Below, piece after piece: positions 15,598 through 22,138 of a stretch of DNA of 64,000 nucleotides; the first letter of the stretch is position 1; the number at the start of each line of letters is the position of its first letter. This DNA comes from an uncultured Roseicyclus sp. (GTDB taxonomy: Bacteria > Pseudomonadota > Alphaproteobacteria > Rhodobacterales > Rhodobacteraceae). The notes beneath the pieces were generated by a model. That model saw only the letters and a program-made list of their open reading frames with translations, was not told the origin of the DNA and did no database searches. The stretch lies in contig CANLXA010000004.1 in NCBI GenBank assembly GCA_947494975.1, forward strand, positions 777,001-841,000, given 5' to 3'. The translations under genes and the position numbers were made by a program.

Positions 15598-16674
15598 ATG
15601 GCCGATCTGGATGCGCAGGTAAAGGAATCGCAGGCTCAAGTAAGCGAGGCGCAAGCCAAGATCGCTGAGCTGACCGGCAAGATCGAGGCCGCGCGCAGCA
15701 AGATCAAAGGGGGCGAGGATGCCACTTTGGACATCGAGAACGCCTCGCTGGAAGATGTCCACGCCCACACCAAGGTCATGGATGCAAATATCGCCGAATT
15801 GATCATGGGGCTGGACGATATCACCTCTGCCTTCTCCAAAGACTTCGACGAAATGCGCTCCAAAACCGGTTGGGAGAGTTTTGTCGGCATTTTCAGCAGG
15901 GCCAAGGCCGACAATATGCGCCAGGAACGCGTGCGTACCGCTAGCATTGATGACAAGTTGCAGGACCTGATCAGCAAGTCCGACGTGATCGTTCAGCTGC
16001 TCGAAAGCCAGTTGGCCACGCTGGAAGAGCACAAAACCAAAGTCGGCGACAATCTGACAGAAACACTCGATGAGCGGGAGTTCACGGTCGGTGAGTTGGA
16101 AACCGTGCGCGCCCAGATACAGGCGATGGATCCCACTATCATCTCCATGGAAAACAAGATCGCCAATGAAACCGACGCCGCTGCGCGCACCAAGCTGGAA
16201 ACGGAGTTGGCCGATCTGAACTCGAAATATAACGAGTTGGTCCAACAAGAACAGGTGAAGCTGGCAAAGTCGCAGACGTTGGAGCGCTATATCGACAAAG
16301 GCAAAACCTGGATCGACTCGCTGCAGAACCAGGCGGCGACGCAGATGGTGCTGATCAACAAGCTGCAAACAGACACCAAGCAGCGCGTCGTGCTCTATGA
16401 TGCGCTGACCAAGTCGCTCAAGACCGCGCAGCAGCAGGACGTCGCCCACCGCATCAATGAGATCGGGGTCCAGACGGACCAAGAGGCGCAATCTGCAATG
16501 GCGGGGATCGGCGCGGCCACGAACCAGAAAATGGCCGACATGTTGGAATCCCACGAAGATCACATGGTCTTTGCACGTGATGTGTTGGAGGCCAAGGCCA
16601 AGGCAGACGAACGTTTTGCCCGCCGCTTCGCCCAGATTGTCGAGAAGCACGACAAGAACCTTTATGGGGGGTGA
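15598..16674 (+). CDS. Long coiled-coil protein, distantly TelA-like, first gene of AAA operon
   Basis: A 358-residue soluble protein, almost wholly helical. The first 45 residues are heptad-rich (ESQAQVSEAQAKIAEL), a conserved-looking break GWESFVGIFSRAK follows near residue 90, and long coiled coils run to residue 350. The arrangement recalls the toxic-anion-resistance TelA family, but the match is weak and I do not assign it. There is no signal peptide or membrane segment. AAGGGA six bases before ATG 15598 supports the start over the preceding TTG. It heads a six-gene operon with a classic AAA ATPase and could be the filament or substrate that the ATPase remodels. Confidence 0.8.
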   Translation: MADLDAQVKESQAQVSEAQAKIAELTGKIEAARSKIKGGEDATLDIENASLEDVHAHTKVMDANIAELIMGLDDITSAFSKDFDEMRSKTGWESFVGIFSRAKADNMRQERVRTASIDDKLQDLISKSDVIVQLLESQLATLEEHKTKVGDNLTETLDEREFTVGELETVRAQIQAMDPTIISMENKIANETDAAARTKLETELADLNSKYNELVQQEQVKLAKSQTLERYIDKGKTWIDSLQNQAATQMVLINKLQTDTKQRVVLYDALTKSLKTAQQQDVAHRINEIGVQTDQEAQSAMAGIGAATNQKMADMLESHEDHMVFARDVLEAKAKADERFARRFAQIVEKHDKNLYGG

Positions 16675-16750
16675 GCCGCACCCATTGCCCACCTTGTCGG
16701 CGCGGTCGGTTCGCAGGTGTCGACCAGCCCATTTAGTAAGGAGTTAGAAT

Positions 16751-17872
16751 TTGGCCGTTGATCCGTCGCGTACACATGTCGGCTTGTCCGATCTGTTCGC
16801 GTCCCGACGGTACTTTGCCAAGTTCGAGAAGATCATCGCGTATCTTCCGCGCGTCGCTGCGACGATGAAGTCGGATGGTGCGCTGAACGATGGCGAGTTG
16901 GATATCCTATCCTCCTATGTTCAGGGCATCGCTTATTCTTTTCACGCGCTGTCGATGAAATATCTGCTCGTGGGTCGCGACACAGGGCAATTTCTCGGCG
17001 CACTGGAAATGGACACGGTCGAAAGCGGCTTTCCGGTATTCAATGAGTTGCTGATCATGGCCAGTGACGCGCAGCAGGCGAGCCGGCGATTGGCGAATAT
17101 GCCAAGCGTCCACCGCCTGAAGTCGCAGATGATCGAACATATCGTAGGGGAACGTCAGATCCCGACCAAGCTGCAATTCGCCCTGTCGCAACGGCTCTAT
17201 TACGAAGAATTGCAGAACGGCCATTTGTTCTGGGCACAGAATGATCCCGTCGCAATATGGCAGGGCACGGCTGACGGACGCGGTCGATATCTGCTGCATT
17301 GGGCGGTCTATGACAGCCAGGTGAATCTGCCGACCATCTATTTGATGGAGCTCGATGATACGGGACGTACGGCCCTTCCTCGTGATGAGCGCCGCTGGCC
17401 CGAGGTTCAGGCCCATCTCATGGCGCAGGCCTTGGGCGGGTTGAAGCTTTTGACGATTGCCAAGGGATTTGACGAGGCGTTCGATGACGTGCACCCCAAG
17501 CGCCTGCGCCGGTTGCATTTGGGGCCAATGTATAGCCACACGTTCACCAAGCAATCTGGCCCCATCCGTGATGTGCTCGCTGACGCCAAGTCCCCGGCGG
17601 GGCAGGACTGGACCTTGGCCTGGACTGATGAAGTTCTGGAAAGCGAGCGTGTTGTGACCGAAAAGTCCGGCTGGTTCGGCCGGGTAGAGCGCGAGATATT
17701 CGCGCTTGATCCTTTCTCGGGCCGCGGCGCGGACACCGGCGCCACACGAATGGAGCGCAGCATTATTCTGCCGGAAAGGCCGTTTCAGGTGCTGGCCGAG
17801 AAAAACCCTGCAGGCTTCGCCAGTGTGACAAAATATGTCGTCAGCCCCGATGGCCGGGTGTTTAAGAACTGA
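16751..17872 (+). CDS. Uncharacterised soluble protein of the AAA operon
   Basis: A 373-residue protein with no family I can name. It begins with TTG at 16751, supported by AAGGAG seven bases upstream. The N-terminal 130 residues are helical (LNDGELDILSSYVQGIAYSFHAL, 'DAQQASRRLANMPSVHRL'), the middle is mixed with aromatic-rich segments (YYEELQNGHLFWAQNDPVAIW), and the C-terminus is beta-rich (ERPFQVLAEKNPAGFASVTKYV). No membrane helices or signal peptide. It lies between the coiled-coil and ATPase genes with gaps of 76 and 39 bases. Function unknown; it may be an adaptor. Confidence 0.8.
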   Translation: MAVDPSRTHVGLSDLFASRRYFAKFEKIIAYLPRVAATMKSDGALNDGELDILSSYVQGIAYSFHALSMKYLLVGRDTGQFLGALEMDTVESGFPVFNELLIMASDAQQASRRLANMPSVHRLKSQMIEHIVGERQIPTKLQFALSQRLYYEELQNGHLFWAQNDPVAIWQGTADGRGRYLLHWAVYDSQVNLPTIYLMELDDTGRTALPRDERRWPEVQAHLMAQALGGLKLLTIAKGFDEAFDDVHPKRLRRLHLGPMYSHTFTKQSGPIRDVLADAKSPAGQDWTLAWTDEVLESERVVTEKSGWFGRVEREIFALDPFSGRGADTGATRMERSIILPERPFQVLAEKNPAGFASVTKYVVSPDGRVFKN

Positions 17873-17911
17873 AGGATACGGGGCTTCCGAGCCCATCGAA
17901 CAGGAGGACGC

Positions 17912-19849
17912 ATGAGCTTGACTGCCGATACCATGGAGCTGACCGAGGACGACATCGTCAAGCACTACGATGCAGCGGTCGCGATGCTGGAAGGCTTCGA
18001 CCATACTCCGCGCATCGGCAAGGCGCGTGCTCGCACCACTGCGCCCGAACGATCTACCGGCGTAGCGACACGCCGCAGGTTCCGCTCGACCACTCCCGGC
18101 CTCGTCACACGCTCGACCGCGCGACCGGAGGGGGTGCAGTTAATCGAAAGCATTCGCGCCGCCGTCAGTGACGATCCGTTGGTCAGCCCCCTGCAGGCGA
18201 CGCTTCTGCACCTCTTGCGTCGGGCGCTGGCAATATCGCTGGCCGTCGGCGAGACCTACGCCAACTCCACTGGTCTTGCCGATCTGCGCCGTGCAAATCT
18301 CGCAGGGTCCCTGCCCGCGGACCGAAAGACCGAATTTACCGAGCTTTTGGCTGCCGAAGCGTTGGCCGTTACCCATGTCTTTGCAAATGCGACCGCCTTC
18401 CTCCTCGGGCCACATGCCAGCGAGACGACAGTCGAAGTGGGTGAGGTGGAAGAAATCTTGACCGACAACTCACAACTCGCGCTCCATGGCTGCCTGTGGG
18501 AGCTGGATCAGGATATCGCTGTCCACGCGGGTGACGACGCTCAGTTGGTCGCAACCGTCATGGCCTTCGCCGAGCAGGTCATGGAAAAGGTCGCGCTTCG
18601 CGCCCAGAATGCAGGCCGCTTGGCACCATTCACCGGTGCCAGTTGGCGGATCGAGGCCGACAAGCTGACCATCCGCGGGTTTGAACCGGCCAGTAATGCC
18701 AGATCCTCCACACTGACGATGACCTTCAAGAAGCCGCATGAAGTGGTCGGAAACCACATCGCGAAGTACCAGGCTCTGAAGCTTTCGAAGATGCTGATGG
18801 CGTATGATTTTGATCGACGCCTGAACCCGTTCGCGGAACTTGGTGGGTTCATCTTCACCTTCATGGGGGATGGCAAACCCGGGACAGGGAAAACCACGCT
18901 GATCCAGATGATGGCGGGTCTGATCCACGGCTATTGCGAAACGGCGGGTTACCCGTTTCGCTATCAGAACCTCAGCACTGACAACATCGACAGCTACCAA
19001 GGCAAGTCTGGCCAGAACGCGAAGGCGTTCATCAACAACATCATCGACCCATCCGTTATCGGCTTTGGAACGATTGATGACATCGACCAACTTGCAGGAA
19101 AACGCGGCGACAGGCAGTCATCGGCCGGGCAGTTGGAAATCACCGCCGTGCTGATGGAGAGCTTTGCGGGTGCCAATACGGTTGTACGAGGCAATTGTAC
19201 GTTCGGGATGTTCTCGAACTACCCCGAAAACGTTGACGATGCGCTACGTCAGCGGGCAGGGGCCCGGTTCCTGGTGGACGGGCCGATCACGCGCGAAGAC
19301 TATATCGATATCCTCAGCCTTCTGATGGGCAAGAACCACGACATCCCCTTGGGTGACCATGAGGTTTTCGCAGCGCAAGAGATCAAGAGGGCCGTGGCCG
19401 CCTCGTTTGAGAGCCATTCGCGCCCTCATGAAGCGGGCCTCATGAAGGTCTTCGACAAGGTCGATCAGACCGTGGGCAGGCTGGATACGATAGCCAAGCT
19501 CGGCACATATCTGAAAGCCATCCAAGAGGCCGACGAACGTTTCACGGGCCGCGCGATCAAGAACATCACCGACGCCGTGAAGGTCCGCGCAATGGACTTC
19601 GAGTTGCCCGATGAATGGATGGAGGAACCGGACCTGTTCCTCTTCAAGGACTACGATACCAAGCTCGGGATGATCGAAGAGCTGCGGCAGCCGATAACCG
19701 TCGACATGGTGATCCAGGAGATCAACCGTTACGCCGACAGCGAATTCCGCTATGCCGACAAATCCGACGAAGTTGCGATTGCCGATGCCGTGCGCGATAT
19801 GCAGCGGATGGAAGAGGCCAAACGCCGCTATCTGGAGCAGCAGGGATGA
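17912..19849 (+). CDS. AAA ATPase with second-region-of-homology motif
   Basis: A 645-residue cytoplasmic ATPase. Residues 1-290 are a basic, helical, otherwise unrecognised N-terminal region. The AAA core has Walker A GKPGTGKTTL (about 322-331), Walker B GFGTIDDIDQLAG (about 383-395), sensor-1 Asn in MFSNYPENVD (about 434), and DDALRQRAGARF (about 443-454), which resembles the arginine-finger second region of homology of classic AAA proteins such as katanin, Vps4 and FtsH. A helical lid and C-terminal tail follow. These enzymes act as hexamers that unfold or disassemble protein assemblies. The partner is probably the operon's coiled-coil protein. Confidence 0.88.
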   Translation: MSLTADTMELTEDDIVKHYDAAVAMLEGFDHTPRIGKARARTTAPERSTGVATRRRFRSTTPGLVTRSTARPEGVQLIESIRAAVSDDPLVSPLQATLLHLLRRALAISLAVGETYANSTGLADLRRANLAGSLPADRKTEFTELLAAEALAVTHVFANATAFLLGPHASETTVEVGEVEEILTDNSQLALHGCLWELDQDIAVHAGDDAQLVATVMAFAEQVMEKVALRAQNAGRLAPFTGASWRIEADKLTIRGFEPASNARSSTLTMTFKKPHEVVGNHIAKYQALKLSKMLMAYDFDRRLNPFAELGGFIFTFMGDGKPGTGKTTLIQMMAGLIHGYCETAGYPFRYQNLSTDNIDSYQGKSGQNAKAFINNIIDPSVIGFGTIDDIDQLAGKRGDRQSSAGQLEITAVLMESFAGANTVVRGNCTFGMFSNYPENVDDALRQRAGARFLVDGPITREDYIDILSLLMGKNHDIPLGDHEVFAAQEIKRAVAASFESHSRPHEAGLMKVFDKVDQTVGRLDTIAKLGTYLKAIQEADERFTGRAIKNITDAVKVRAMDFELPDEWMEEPDLFLFKDYDTKLGMIEELRQPITVDMVIQEINRYADSEFRYADKSDEVAIADAVRDMQRMEEAKRRYLEQQG

Positions 19850-19889
19850 TCAGGCGCATGCCCCAGCATGTCATAGGGACATCGGCGCG

Positions 19890-21197
19890 ATGAACCGCCT
19901 GATCTCGTCCGGCCTGATGTTCGGCAACCTGTTCCATGTCGCGTCGCCACCATTGGTCGAACGTTACAACCGAGCCTTGGTTCACCTGACAGGTAAGCAG
20001 ACTGCGCTGCCGGATTTCTACATCGACATTTCAGGGTATTCGCCGGAAATCGGATTCGAATTAGGAGATCCCCTCTACCTCAACCATGATGGAGTGAATC
20101 GCCAGTTCATTCTGTTGTCCACCTCCCAGAAATATGCGCCGTTGCTTGAGGCAAAATTCTCCACCTGTCGCGGTATCCTGCGTCAGTTCATTTCGCAGAA
20201 TGAGGCGGCTTTGTTCGCTCTGACCGCCCGGGATGCGGTGGCGGGCGAGTTGGTCAATTCTGTCTTCAATCTGTCGGACCCAGCCCGGCTTCTTGATATC
20301 CGGCGCATTACGATTGAGGCCGACACTACCGGCGGCGCGATACGTCAGGCGGCCAAACTCGACGCCAAGGTTGACCGCTTCCTGAACGAGGAAGACGCCT
20401 GGTTCGATGACGTGTTGATCGCTGAGATGATTGAACTGGCCGGTGAGACGGGCGACATCGTGCGTAACCCGGTACACCTCAAAGGCATGAGTTTCGAGCA
20501 GGGCAATTTCTGGACCGCACATTACGGCGGCGCGTATCTTTTCCAGGACGTGAAACACCCGGCAATCCTGGCATCCGGCGACAAGGCTCCATTCGACGCG
20601 GTCGATGTCGAGCATGTTTTCGATATGACGCAACGCAGCCACATCGCACGGTTTCTGGACCTCAATGGCCTTGTGGAGCCCATCGTCAAAGCCCGCGGTG
20701 TCGATGCCAGTGCCGTGCTGCGCCAGAAGATGGACTTCATCCTGGTCGACGCCTTGGCTGATGCGGATGTTGTCCTGAAGGGCCGTTCGCGCGGCGAAAT
20801 GCGCAGGCTCGCACGCGATCATATCGGTCAACTGCCCCAGGAGTTTCACGCCCTCGCAGCGCTCTTGAATTGGGCAGAAGGTGGTGGGGCCTGGCCGAGC
20901 ATCACTTCGAACAACCCGGTCTACTTCTACACATTGCGTGCGTCCGACCATAAAGACGCGGAGCTTGTGAATATGTTGCTCGCCGAATTGACGATCCGGG
21001 ATTTTCGGCAGCTCTTCATTTGCCACAAGCCCCTGTTTTACGAGAAGTTCGCTGATTTCTCGGACGCAAAGAAGGATTACGTGGTCGAATTTCTGCGGAA
21101 TGAATACCAAACAGATAAGGCGGGTGCGCGCACTGCGCTGTTTGGTCATGAACCGTCAATGGAAGAAGAGGTGAGGCGTGTTGGACCGTGGGGCTGA
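19890..21197 (+). CDS. Uncharacterised 435-residue protein of the AAA operon
   Basis: No family recognised with confidence. The start ATG 19890 has AGGGA ten bases upstream; the frame is open further back but overlaps the ATPase gene. The protein is soluble, acidic and mixed alpha-beta, with tracts such as LMFGNLFHVASPPLVERYN at the start, FEQGNFWTAHYGGAYLFQDVKHP in the middle, and a C-terminal helical part (RDHIGQLPQEFHALAALLNWA). It lies 40 bases after the ATPase gene and 15 before a small membrane-protein gene. Conserved linkage should be tested before any role is proposed. Confidence 0.8.
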   Translation: MNRLISSGLMFGNLFHVASPPLVERYNRALVHLTGKQTALPDFYIDISGYSPEIGFELGDPLYLNHDGVNRQFILLSTSQKYAPLLEAKFSTCRGILRQFISQNEAALFALTARDAVAGELVNSVFNLSDPARLLDIRRITIEADTTGGAIRQAAKLDAKVDRFLNEEDAWFDDVLIAEMIELAGETGDIVRNPVHLKGMSFEQGNFWTAHYGGAYLFQDVKHPAILASGDKAPFDAVDVEHVFDMTQRSHIARFLDLNGLVEPIVKARGVDASAVLRQKMDFILVDALADADVVLKGRSRGEMRRLARDHIGQLPQEFHALAALLNWAEGGGAWPSITSNNPVYFYTLRASDHKDAELVNMLLAELTIRDFRQLFICHKPLFYEKFADFSDAKKDYVVEFLRNEYQTDKAGARTALFGHEPSMEEEVRRVGPWG

Positions 21198-21212
21198 AAA
21201 GGGGAGGCCGTC

Positions 21213-21479
21213 ATGTTCGCACTGATGCGTCTGGCTTTGGTCGGCTTTGTCGTGCTGACGGTGATCTATATCGCATTGTCGATATACTCGCGATCTGTCC
21301 GTCGCAAACGTTTGATCCGCGAGTGGGAAGAGGAGCATCCGACCGCAGATCGCGACAGTTTCGTGGATGAAGGGTTGGACGACTATGATAGCTCGCTCAG
21401 ACGCAAGCTGATTCTTGGCGTCTATGTCGTACCGGTTTGCGTGGTGGCCTTCATCGTCTACGTCACGAATTTTCAGTAA
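21213..21479 (+). CDS. Small membrane protein, two predicted helices
   Basis: An 88-residue protein with one hydrophobic helix near residues 5-25 (ALVGFVVLTVIYIALSIY), a charged linker of about 40 residues rich in Arg, Glu and Asp, and a second helix near 66-86 (LILGVYVVPVCVVAFIVYV). The positive cluster RSVRRKRL after helix 1 suggests a cytoplasmic loop between the helices. AGGGGAGG lies upstream of the ATG. It belongs to the AAA operon and, with the next gene, would link the soluble components to the inner membrane. Confidence 0.82.
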   Translation: MFALMRLALVGFVVLTVIYIALSIYSRSVRRKRLIREWEEEHPTADRDSFVDEGLDDYDSSLRRKLILGVYVVPVCVVAFIVYVTNFQ

Positions 21480-21490
21480 GGGTCGGCGAG

Positions 21491-22138
21491 ATGAAATACG
21501 TCAAATGGTTTTTCGCAGCGCTGTTCTGGCTCGTCGTCGCCGCCACCTTTCACTATACATTGCCCCAGAACGACATCGTGCGCGTGACCGGGACCGAGAT
21601 CATTCGCAAGGATTTTTCAGGCCTTTCCCGGTTTTTCTATGCGCAGGCGGATAGCGGCGACAATGAGTTGGGGAACCGAGACTTGCGGTTGATCAACACG
21701 ACCCGAGCCAATGGCCGTGTCATGGTCTACCGCAATGAGGACACGGGTTGGAACTGGCCACCATATTTCAAGTTTGACAGCTCCAACCTGCAAGCCGAGG
21801 CAAGCGAGTACGTCTCTACCATCGATAACCCTCGGTGGGTTGCCGTACGCCACTATGGCTGGCGGAACCCGTTCCTGTCGATTTACCCGAACGCCATCGG
21901 TATCCGGCCTGTCGACGGCCCGGATGCAAATCTTGGGCTGCCGTGGCTGAACATTGCGATCTTGACAACGTTCGCTGTCATTGCGCTGGGCATCCGTGCG
22001 TTGTGGCGGCGGTTCAGGACATCGCGTATCGACCCGCTGGTGGACAATGTTCAGGACGGGGTCAGCGCGACGGGCGACGCCATTTCAAAACGGAGATCCG
22101 GGATACGGCGGTGGCTCGACACCTGGAAAGCGAAGTAG
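21491..22138 (+). CDS. DUF1523 family membrane protein
   Basis: A 215-residue protein that I recognise as DUF1523: MKYVKWFFAALFWLVVAATFHY, then DIVRVTGTEI, the signature YRNEDTGWNWPPYFKFD, VAVRHYGWRN, and a second hydrophobic helix near 150-170. The part between the helices is probably periplasmic and has an OB-like beta-rich composition. The function of the family is unknown. The ATG at 21491 lies 11 bases after the previous stop with GGCGAG as a weak ribosome site. It closes the AAA operon; a hairpin begins at its stop codon. Confidence 0.88.
   Translation: MKYVKWFFAALFWLVVAATFHYTLPQNDIVRVTGTEIIRKDFSGLSRFFYAQADSGDNELGNRDLRLINTTRANGRVMVYRNEDTGWNWPPYFKFDSSNLQAEASEYVSTIDNPRWVAVRHYGWRNPFLSIYPNAIGIRPVDGPDANLGLPWLNIAILTTFAVIALGIRALWRRFRTSRIDPLVDNVQDGVSATGDAISKRRSGIRRWLDTWKAK

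Follow-up and report, generated by a model that had tools for sequence, protein, structure and literature searches.

An operon of six genes from an uncultured Roseicyclus sp. (Rhodobacteraceae) encodes four proteins that, judged from sequence, are one unit whose core parts are inherited together: an all-helical coiled-coil protein (CC), a protein of no known family (B), a classic AAA ATPase (AAA) and a DUF6638 protein (D). The operon lies at positions 15598-22138 of the stretch of DNA analysed here, 64,000 nucleotides (nt) of contig CANLXA010000004.1 in assembly GCA_947494975.1 (hereafter the window), and appears so far undescribed as a system. A gene-neighbourhood check of the ATPase across relatives found all six genes in order and on one strand in 69/80 loci, and the co-occurrence of AAA with D proved strict. 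The ratio of nonsynonymous to synonymous substitution rates (dN/dS) between the window and the loci L022 and L023 is 0.024-0.079 over all six genes; these low values, together with the recurring order, make the operon more than a chance arrangement. The six-gene operon that the initial annotation had read from the window is therefore real, but relatives mostly carry extra variable genes inside it, a feature that is invisible from the window alone.

The 80 loci are the best of 505; at least that many stretches encode an AAA relative in a scan of genome contigs, and the selection over-represents close relatives. Seven of the 11 loci that depart from the six-gene order are short or cut stretches of 4.5-13.8 kb (L026, L029, L047, L060, L073, L084, L096), and one (L027) has no match to the 88-amino-acid (aa) protein encoded by the fifth gene. 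In the remaining three (L024, L076, L079) D is not beside AAA, and L076 is also without CC and B there; the three genomes all encode D elsewhere and keep CC too, elsewhere for L076 and beside AAA for the other two. Among 248 genomes of the family, taken one per genus, AAA is found in 104 and D in 112, and D is present in 104/104 AAA genomes. Five of the 8 genomes with D and no AAA are less than 80% complete; in G806 no more than a fragment is present. An AAA match is missing in 144/248 family genomes, and within the host genus AAA occurs in 3/13. In plasmid records AAA and D are found in the same 10 of 72,556, and no AAA relative was found in phage records or in viral contigs.

Sinorhizobium, Shinella, Vibrio and Halomonas have the four-protein core as well. 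In nine loci (Sinorhizobium, Shinella and seven of family f33 that group with them) CC, B, AAA and D are joined by DUF2333, which stands in the place of the 88-aa protein and of DUF1523, the product of the sixth gene in the window. On two Vibrio replicons the four core genes are adjacent, with neither DUF2333 nor the pair of 88-aa protein and DUF1523 beside them, and a locus from another alphaproteobacterial family (L128) has DUF1523 and no match to the 88-aa protein. A quick tree of AAA mostly clusters genera together and places three Halomonas-type rows inside the Roseobacter group (SH-aLRT 98 and 100), so that the operon must have moved at least once. The flanks of the operon are common to the window and L022, not to L023. 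Two side observations concern these loci: on the 0.9-Mb Vibrio replicons (L019, L020; 12277-15738) mfd, encoding the transcription-repair coupling factor, follows directly after the four core genes, and in a Roseovarius locus the DUF1523 match is broken into two pieces (L025:14359-14996).

In the window the operon runs on the plus strand through CC (358 aa; 15598..16674), B (373 aa, TTG start; 16751..17872), AAA (645 aa; 17912..19849), D (435 aa; 19890..21197), the 88-aa protein (21213..21479) and DUF1523 (21491..22138), with intergenic gaps of 76, 39, 40, 15 and 11 nt in that order. The initial annotation had given six same-strand genes with gaps of 11-76 nt, and all six open reading frames (ORFs) are indeed there at the lengths it claimed; the most likely start of DUF1523 is the ATG at 21491, giving 215 aa. 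Pfam assigned three of the six proteins, AAA (PF00004; E 1.3e-11), D (PF20343, DUF6638; E 2.2e-207) and DUF1523 (PF07509; E 1.1e-64), so the 435-residue protein first recorded as unknown belongs to a named family; CC, B and the 88-aa protein showed no Pfam family over cut-off. Scored by a hydropathy threshold rather than by a trained predictor, two hydrophobic segments each were found in the 88-aa protein, which has a charged loop between them, and in DUF1523 (at about 6-24 and 150-171), and none over the threshold in CC, B, AAA or D. The part of DUF1523 between its segments is predicted to be periplasmic, and the charged loop of the 88-aa protein is presumably cytosolic, following the positive-inside rule.

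By its domain match and its closest solved relatives, the ATPase is a classic AAA protein, apparently with no clear sister clade. Its domain scores 45.5 bits against the curated PF00004 cut-off of 21.2, and its closest solved relatives, all weak, are the i-AAA (FtsH-like) ATPase domain (the best, E 1.4e-5), Rpt4 of 26S, VCP, fidgetin-like 1, Vps4 and katanin. The classic-AAA assignment made at first sight was thus borne out, but its narrower placement in the Vps4/katanin clade was not, as nothing puts AAA specifically there and i-AAA, Rpt4 and VCP are equally among the weak matches. Walker A (GDGKPGTGKT), Walker B, sensor-1 and the DDALRQRAGAR segment are present as had been described, except that the Walker B pair is DD (D389-D390) and not the usual DE; across 18 aligned members the key residues of these motifs vary little or not at all. 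Further features are a pore-loop-like YQG (362-364), an arginine-finger region (446-452) and a lid motif (FTGR544-547). An alignment of 18 members from Roseobacters, other alphaproteobacteria, rhizobia, Halomonas and Vibrio holds the Walker A Lys, DD, YQG, N436, R446, R448, R452 and R547 invariant; the replacement of the usual Walker B Glu by Asp in 18/18 is a distinctive feature. YQG aligns onto the W-V-G of a fidgetin-like protein. The N-terminal ~290 residues gave no convincing family match in Pfam or in profile searches against solved structures. We also observed that AAA of the window (17912-19849) and of L022 (L022:10001-11938) differ at a synonymous rate (dS) of 0.66, and the other five genes at 0.14-0.32, which suggests that close relatives may have recombined within the AAA gene.

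The variable genes of relatives are concentrated in two intergenic slots. Counting as a gap at least 150 nt between core genes, we found one between CC and B in 50/75 loci and between AAA and D in 66/73, and between B and AAA in 12/79, between D and the 88-aa protein in 1/72 and between the latter and DUF1523 in 0/72. These gaps hold 185 sense ORFs (starts set mechanically, some too long) that fall into 118 families, 86 of them seen once. Membrane segments are predicted by the same hydropathy threshold in 52/62 CC-B ORFs, 72/111 AAA-D ORFs and 5/11 B-AAA ORFs, vs 4/147 antisense ORFs of the same gaps, rows of one clade not being independent. In 16/49 CC-B loci and 36/66 AAA-D loci the slot opens with an ORF that overlaps the stop of the gene upstream by 4 nt. 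Of 149 related slot pairs 51 were usable, with a median dN/dS of 0.39 and 48 values below 1, which indicates that there are real genes under loose constraint among the slot ORFs; the core gave 0.02-0.12 between the window and up to four loci, and the 88-aa protein and DUF1523 up to 0.27, two estimates being saturated. In the window itself both slots are empty (CC-B, slot 1, 76 nt, 16675..16750; AAA-D, slot 2, 40 nt, 19850..19889; no strand applies to either), and both are likewise shorter than 150 nt in 6/70 loci measured.

Slot contents turn over quickly and yet keep to their slot. Among 16 Ruegeria-group loci whose AAA are 93.9-97.2% alike (median 95.5%), the mean Jaccard index of slot families is 0.032, and 105/120 pairs share no slot family. 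The same four downstream genes, flagellar-looking by eye, follow the operon in 15/16 of these loci, which therefore occupy one chromosomal site. None of the 32 slot families seen in at least two loci occurs in two slots, nor do any of the 23 that cross genera, vs a mean of 12.6 under label shuffling that never fell below 5 in 10,000 shuffles; genus labels were taken from record titles, with each unlabelled genome its own genus and two metagenome genomes put with Ruegeria. ORFs with two transmembrane (TM) segments stand to those with three at 39:1 in CC-B, where they are 39 of the 62 ORFs, and at 22:36 in AAA-D (Fisher p 1.8e-10, clade-mates not being independent). Taking one ORF per locus, 34/46 in CC-B have two TM segments, and 49 in AAA-D divide into 19 two-TM and 19 three-TM, with 11 one-TM. 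The cargo suggests that its exchange may be driven by conflict. Most simply, the conserved core genes would recombine with one another, and such recombination would on its own keep cargo in its slot.

The slot proteins are for the most part small membrane proteins, and few belong to named families. We searched representatives of 83 of the 118 families (longest member at least 85 aa); at most 13 of them matched Pfam at E 1e-3, in 13 families with a single member apiece, and most matched nothing. An Mrr restriction enzyme (E 1.7e-32) and AbiJ_NTD4 (8.4e-9) exceed Pfam cut-offs, and an HNH match falls below its own; the others include DUF433, PIN_10, PDC-S31 (PADLOC), a DrmA-like protein with a sub-threshold HATPase domain, a thioredoxin-like protein and BrkB. 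The AAA-D slot of 5/9 rhizobial loci (L018, L129, L130, L133, L139) holds a relative of a gene that in S. meliloti is annotated as endonuclease domain-containing. At least 5/83 representatives matched PADLOC at E 1e-3, across 17 families. A numerical enrichment of defence genes in the slots was considered and rejected, as the 72 nearest flank genes gave 18 PADLOC families, mostly of regulator type, vs the 17 of the slots; since the flank control matches the slot count, we claim only the kinds of defence-like gene. When three slot proteins were compared with plasmid records, one gave a short match (Agrobacterium) and two gave none. Among individual loci, the AAA-D slot of S. meliloti pSymB also contains an IS4-like element, and that of a Ruegeria locus a second short AAA match (L050:12284-12430). 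One rhizobial locus has, between B and AAA, a gene that we take from its motif to be Fic-like (L132:5168-5998), and the B-AAA gap of six loci (L029, L043, L051, L032, L073, L089) holds two small-protein families that look lipoprotein-like by eye.

Starting from what is directly observed (gene order, AAA-D co-occurrence, purifying selection, AAA motifs and hydrophobic segments), the reading we favour, with a confidence that stops just short of even, is an inner-membrane-anchored threading ATPase that remodels CC polymers, or membrane clients collected by CC, in envelope defence or stress. On this reading CC, B, AAA and D would make up an obligate machine of four proteins that remodels its clients at the expense of ATP. 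Small membrane proteins would dock it to the inner membrane: here the 88-aa protein with DUF1523, in the rhizobial loci DUF2333. AAA would form a ring, with its tight gene neighbour B as partner subunit, and would pull its client through the pore via the invariant YQG loop. The likeliest client would be polymerised CC, or else membrane proteins gathered by CC; D may couple the ring to the membrane module, and the whole may guard or repair the inner membrane under envelope attack. In most relatives examined the operon would also act as a chassis: it would offer membrane or defence-like genes two fixed slots in which one can replace another, probably through homologous recombination in the conserved core genes on either side. 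The initial annotation had likewise proposed a remodelling machine on the inner membrane: the conserved order, the AAA-D co-occurrence and membrane partners, seen in the hydrophobic segments of the 88-aa protein and DUF1523, were borne out, while the machine function itself we infer. If this is true, hundreds of bacteria possess a membrane-linked AAA machine that is as yet uncharacterised, together with its three conserved partners, and DUF6638, DUF1523 and DUF2333 become testable as parts of one system. The two slots would then provide a list of orphan membrane proteins tied to the machine and a natural experiment on the drivers of exchange.

The variable genes allow an extension of this reading that is doubtful but worth entertaining, a so far undescribed chassis-and-cargo machine in which the conserved CC-B-AAA-D engine at the inner membrane would be turned on new invaders as these change, through the exchange of cassettes within the operon that encodes it. 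The engine would work with cargo that is specific to its slot and quickly exchanged: slot 1 would take mostly two-TM proteins, and slot 2 proteins that have three or two TM segments or are soluble and defence-like.

Several points weigh against a remodelling machine of this kind. The Glu-to-Asp change in Walker B means that ATP hydrolysis may be slow. Pfam, profile and fold searches detected no kinship of CC to a family that forms polymers, and the predicted model of CC, all helix with two long helices (103-190 and 194-315), is of moderate confidence only (mean predicted local distance difference test, pLDDT, 65.7). Cargo-free cores exist, so cargo is not required, and the confinement of cargo to its slot could arise from recombination alone. 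PspA has no match in the host genome, and over the 248 family genomes AAA and PspA neither exclude each other nor show a clear link.

The operon could instead be an anti-phage or conflict system proper, in which the core would act as sensor or remodeller and the membrane proteins of the slots as its exchangeable effectors, much as in systems like the cyclic-oligonucleotide-based anti-phage signalling system (CBASS), which have varied membrane effectors. We think this unlikely. It would account for the extreme slot turnover in the Ruegeria group, for the Mrr, AbiJ_NTD4, sub-cut-off HNH and rhizobial endonuclease-domain genes in the slots, and for the patchy presence of AAA (104/248) with Halomonas copies nested in the Roseobacter clade. 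CC members, moreover, match Pfam families weakly, and the best of these matches is to an effector-associated domain, EAD9 (7/24, best E 3.8e-4, the window CC not among them); it may serve as a lead only. It has to be set against the cargo-free cores, the window included, the lack of numerical enrichment of PADLOC families, and the single site shared by 15/16 Ruegeria-group loci beside flagellar-looking genes. Beyond a likeness of AAA, PADLOC (2023) gave no convincing match to a core gene: CC gave a weak LmuB match (E 6.8e-5) over its coiled-coil stretch, and other matches stayed above E 1e-3.

The sole PADLOC match of the window AAA is a weak one, to the TRIP13 profile (E 2.9e-5), limited to residues 320-468; the profile also matches 17/18 AAA members at E 0.01. 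AAA may thereby resemble the TRIP13/Pch2 partner of HORMA proteins in type III CBASS, and TRIP13 presumably has an Arg in its lid, as AAA does at R547; unlike that system, the six proteins gave no HORMA or nucleotidyltransferase (CD-NTase) match in Pfam or PADLOC. The NTPase-thresholded conflict systems with hypervariable effectors (MoxR-vWA, GTPases, proteolytic cascades), as presented in the accessible part of PMC7159879, share with the operon a conserved NTPase core and varied partner modules, but their MoxR-vWA, GTPase and proteolytic parts were not matched among the six proteins by Pfam or PADLOC.

The core might also be a housekeeping machine for envelope or secretion-related assembly, with the slots a tolerant landing site that traps small genes by co-transcription, which we consider improbable. 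Strong purifying selection on the core, the grouping of most genera in the AAA tree and the 4-nt overlaps of first slot ORFs with upstream stops all fit it. However, the 144/248 family genomes with no AAA match mean that the machine is not essential across the family, and TM counts that differ by slot are unexpected of a neutral trap, although ORFs of clade-mates are not independent.

It is very unlikely that the operon is a diverged system of the ESCRT-III/Vps4 (endosomal sorting complex required for transport) or PspA type, with CC as the polymer and AAA as its Vps4: the arginine-finger region of AAA aligns to a fidgetin-like protein, Vps4 chains are among its matches, CC is all-helical in its predicted model and TetR-like/PspA neighbours occur in two lineages, but the window CC has no PspA or Snf7 match in Pfam, neither is in the best 25 of 37 families matched at E 1 by 24 CC members, no PspA/ESCRT-III fold is among the best 50 of 1005 Foldseek rows for CC, and AAA has no MIT or Vps4_C match (Pfam, E 1).

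A classic-AAA gene beside helical coiled-coil and membrane proteins is common to the operon, to Vps4/ESCRT-III and to PspA-associated AAA, but the operon has two additional conserved proteins, B and D. The phage-shock-protein (PSP) survey PMC11237479 presents AAA ATPases that accompany PspA or Snf7, and the CC-B-AAA-D gene set was not found in the accessible part of that paper; nor is pspA in or beside the operon of the window, unlike in the PSP system. A TetR-like/PspA pair adjoins the operon in 3/96 loci, from two lineages and on opposite sides: in L064 and L097 it stands immediately upstream in divergent orientation, and in L128 (2532-3242, minus strand) it is found downstream as a distant form with 26% identity to a PspA match (E 6e-7). 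The upstream form also occurs in L169 (G893), a locus chosen because PspA adjoins AAA there. A mutual exclusion of AAA and PspA, hinted at by 61 relatives, was rejected: 25 of the 248 genomes have both vs 19.3 expected (two-sided p 0.07), counting the 46 with PspA over cut-off and leaving out 3 weaker ones.

The FtsH/i-AAA membrane proteases resemble the operon in that an i-AAA ATPase domain is the best solved relative of the AAA core, but AAA has no M41 zinc peptidase match and no hydrophobic segment over threshold. Two candidate identities of CC were also rejected. One was a pore-forming or ESCRT fold: the best 50 of 1005 Foldseek rows, with a top E of 4.6e-3 and TM scores to the query of 0.16-0.41, were read as coiled-coil noise; against sequences in the PDB the CC profile reached at best E 0.13, with designed coiled coils. 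TelA (toxic anion resistance, PF05816) is likewise a long helical coiled-coil protein, and CC had resembled the host TelA by eye, but CC shows no detectable kinship with it: profile comparison (hhalign) gave a probability of 0.1%, CC has no PF05816 match in Pfam, and TelA is absent from the best 25 of the 37 Pfam families of CC members. As the alignments are shallow (effective number of sequences, Neff, 2.2), this is a weak negative. A true TelA gene lies elsewhere in the host genome (L140, G000:C3:920482). The B profile reached at best E 0.8 against the PDB. The predicted model of D is alpha/beta (mean pLDDT 78.8, predicted TM-score, pTM, 0.77), with no convincing match to solved structures (best E 0.53 by fold, 0.18 by profile).

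The earlier remark that no characterised system with this gene order came to mind agrees with PADLOC and with our literature search, neither of which yielded one. A search combining the features of the operon found no paper, DUF6638 was found in none of the papers searched, and terms for this gene set were not found in the accessible part of PMC11188069. DUF1523 is mentioned twice in at least one paper, and DUF2333 appears in the accessible part of one, on a type VI secretion strain.

Finally, the 64-kb window contains no Rfam matches and no tRNAs; the region has no excess of promoter-like sites over shuffled sequence (3 found vs 3.2 expected), and terminators number 10 vs 6.8 expected from shuffles.

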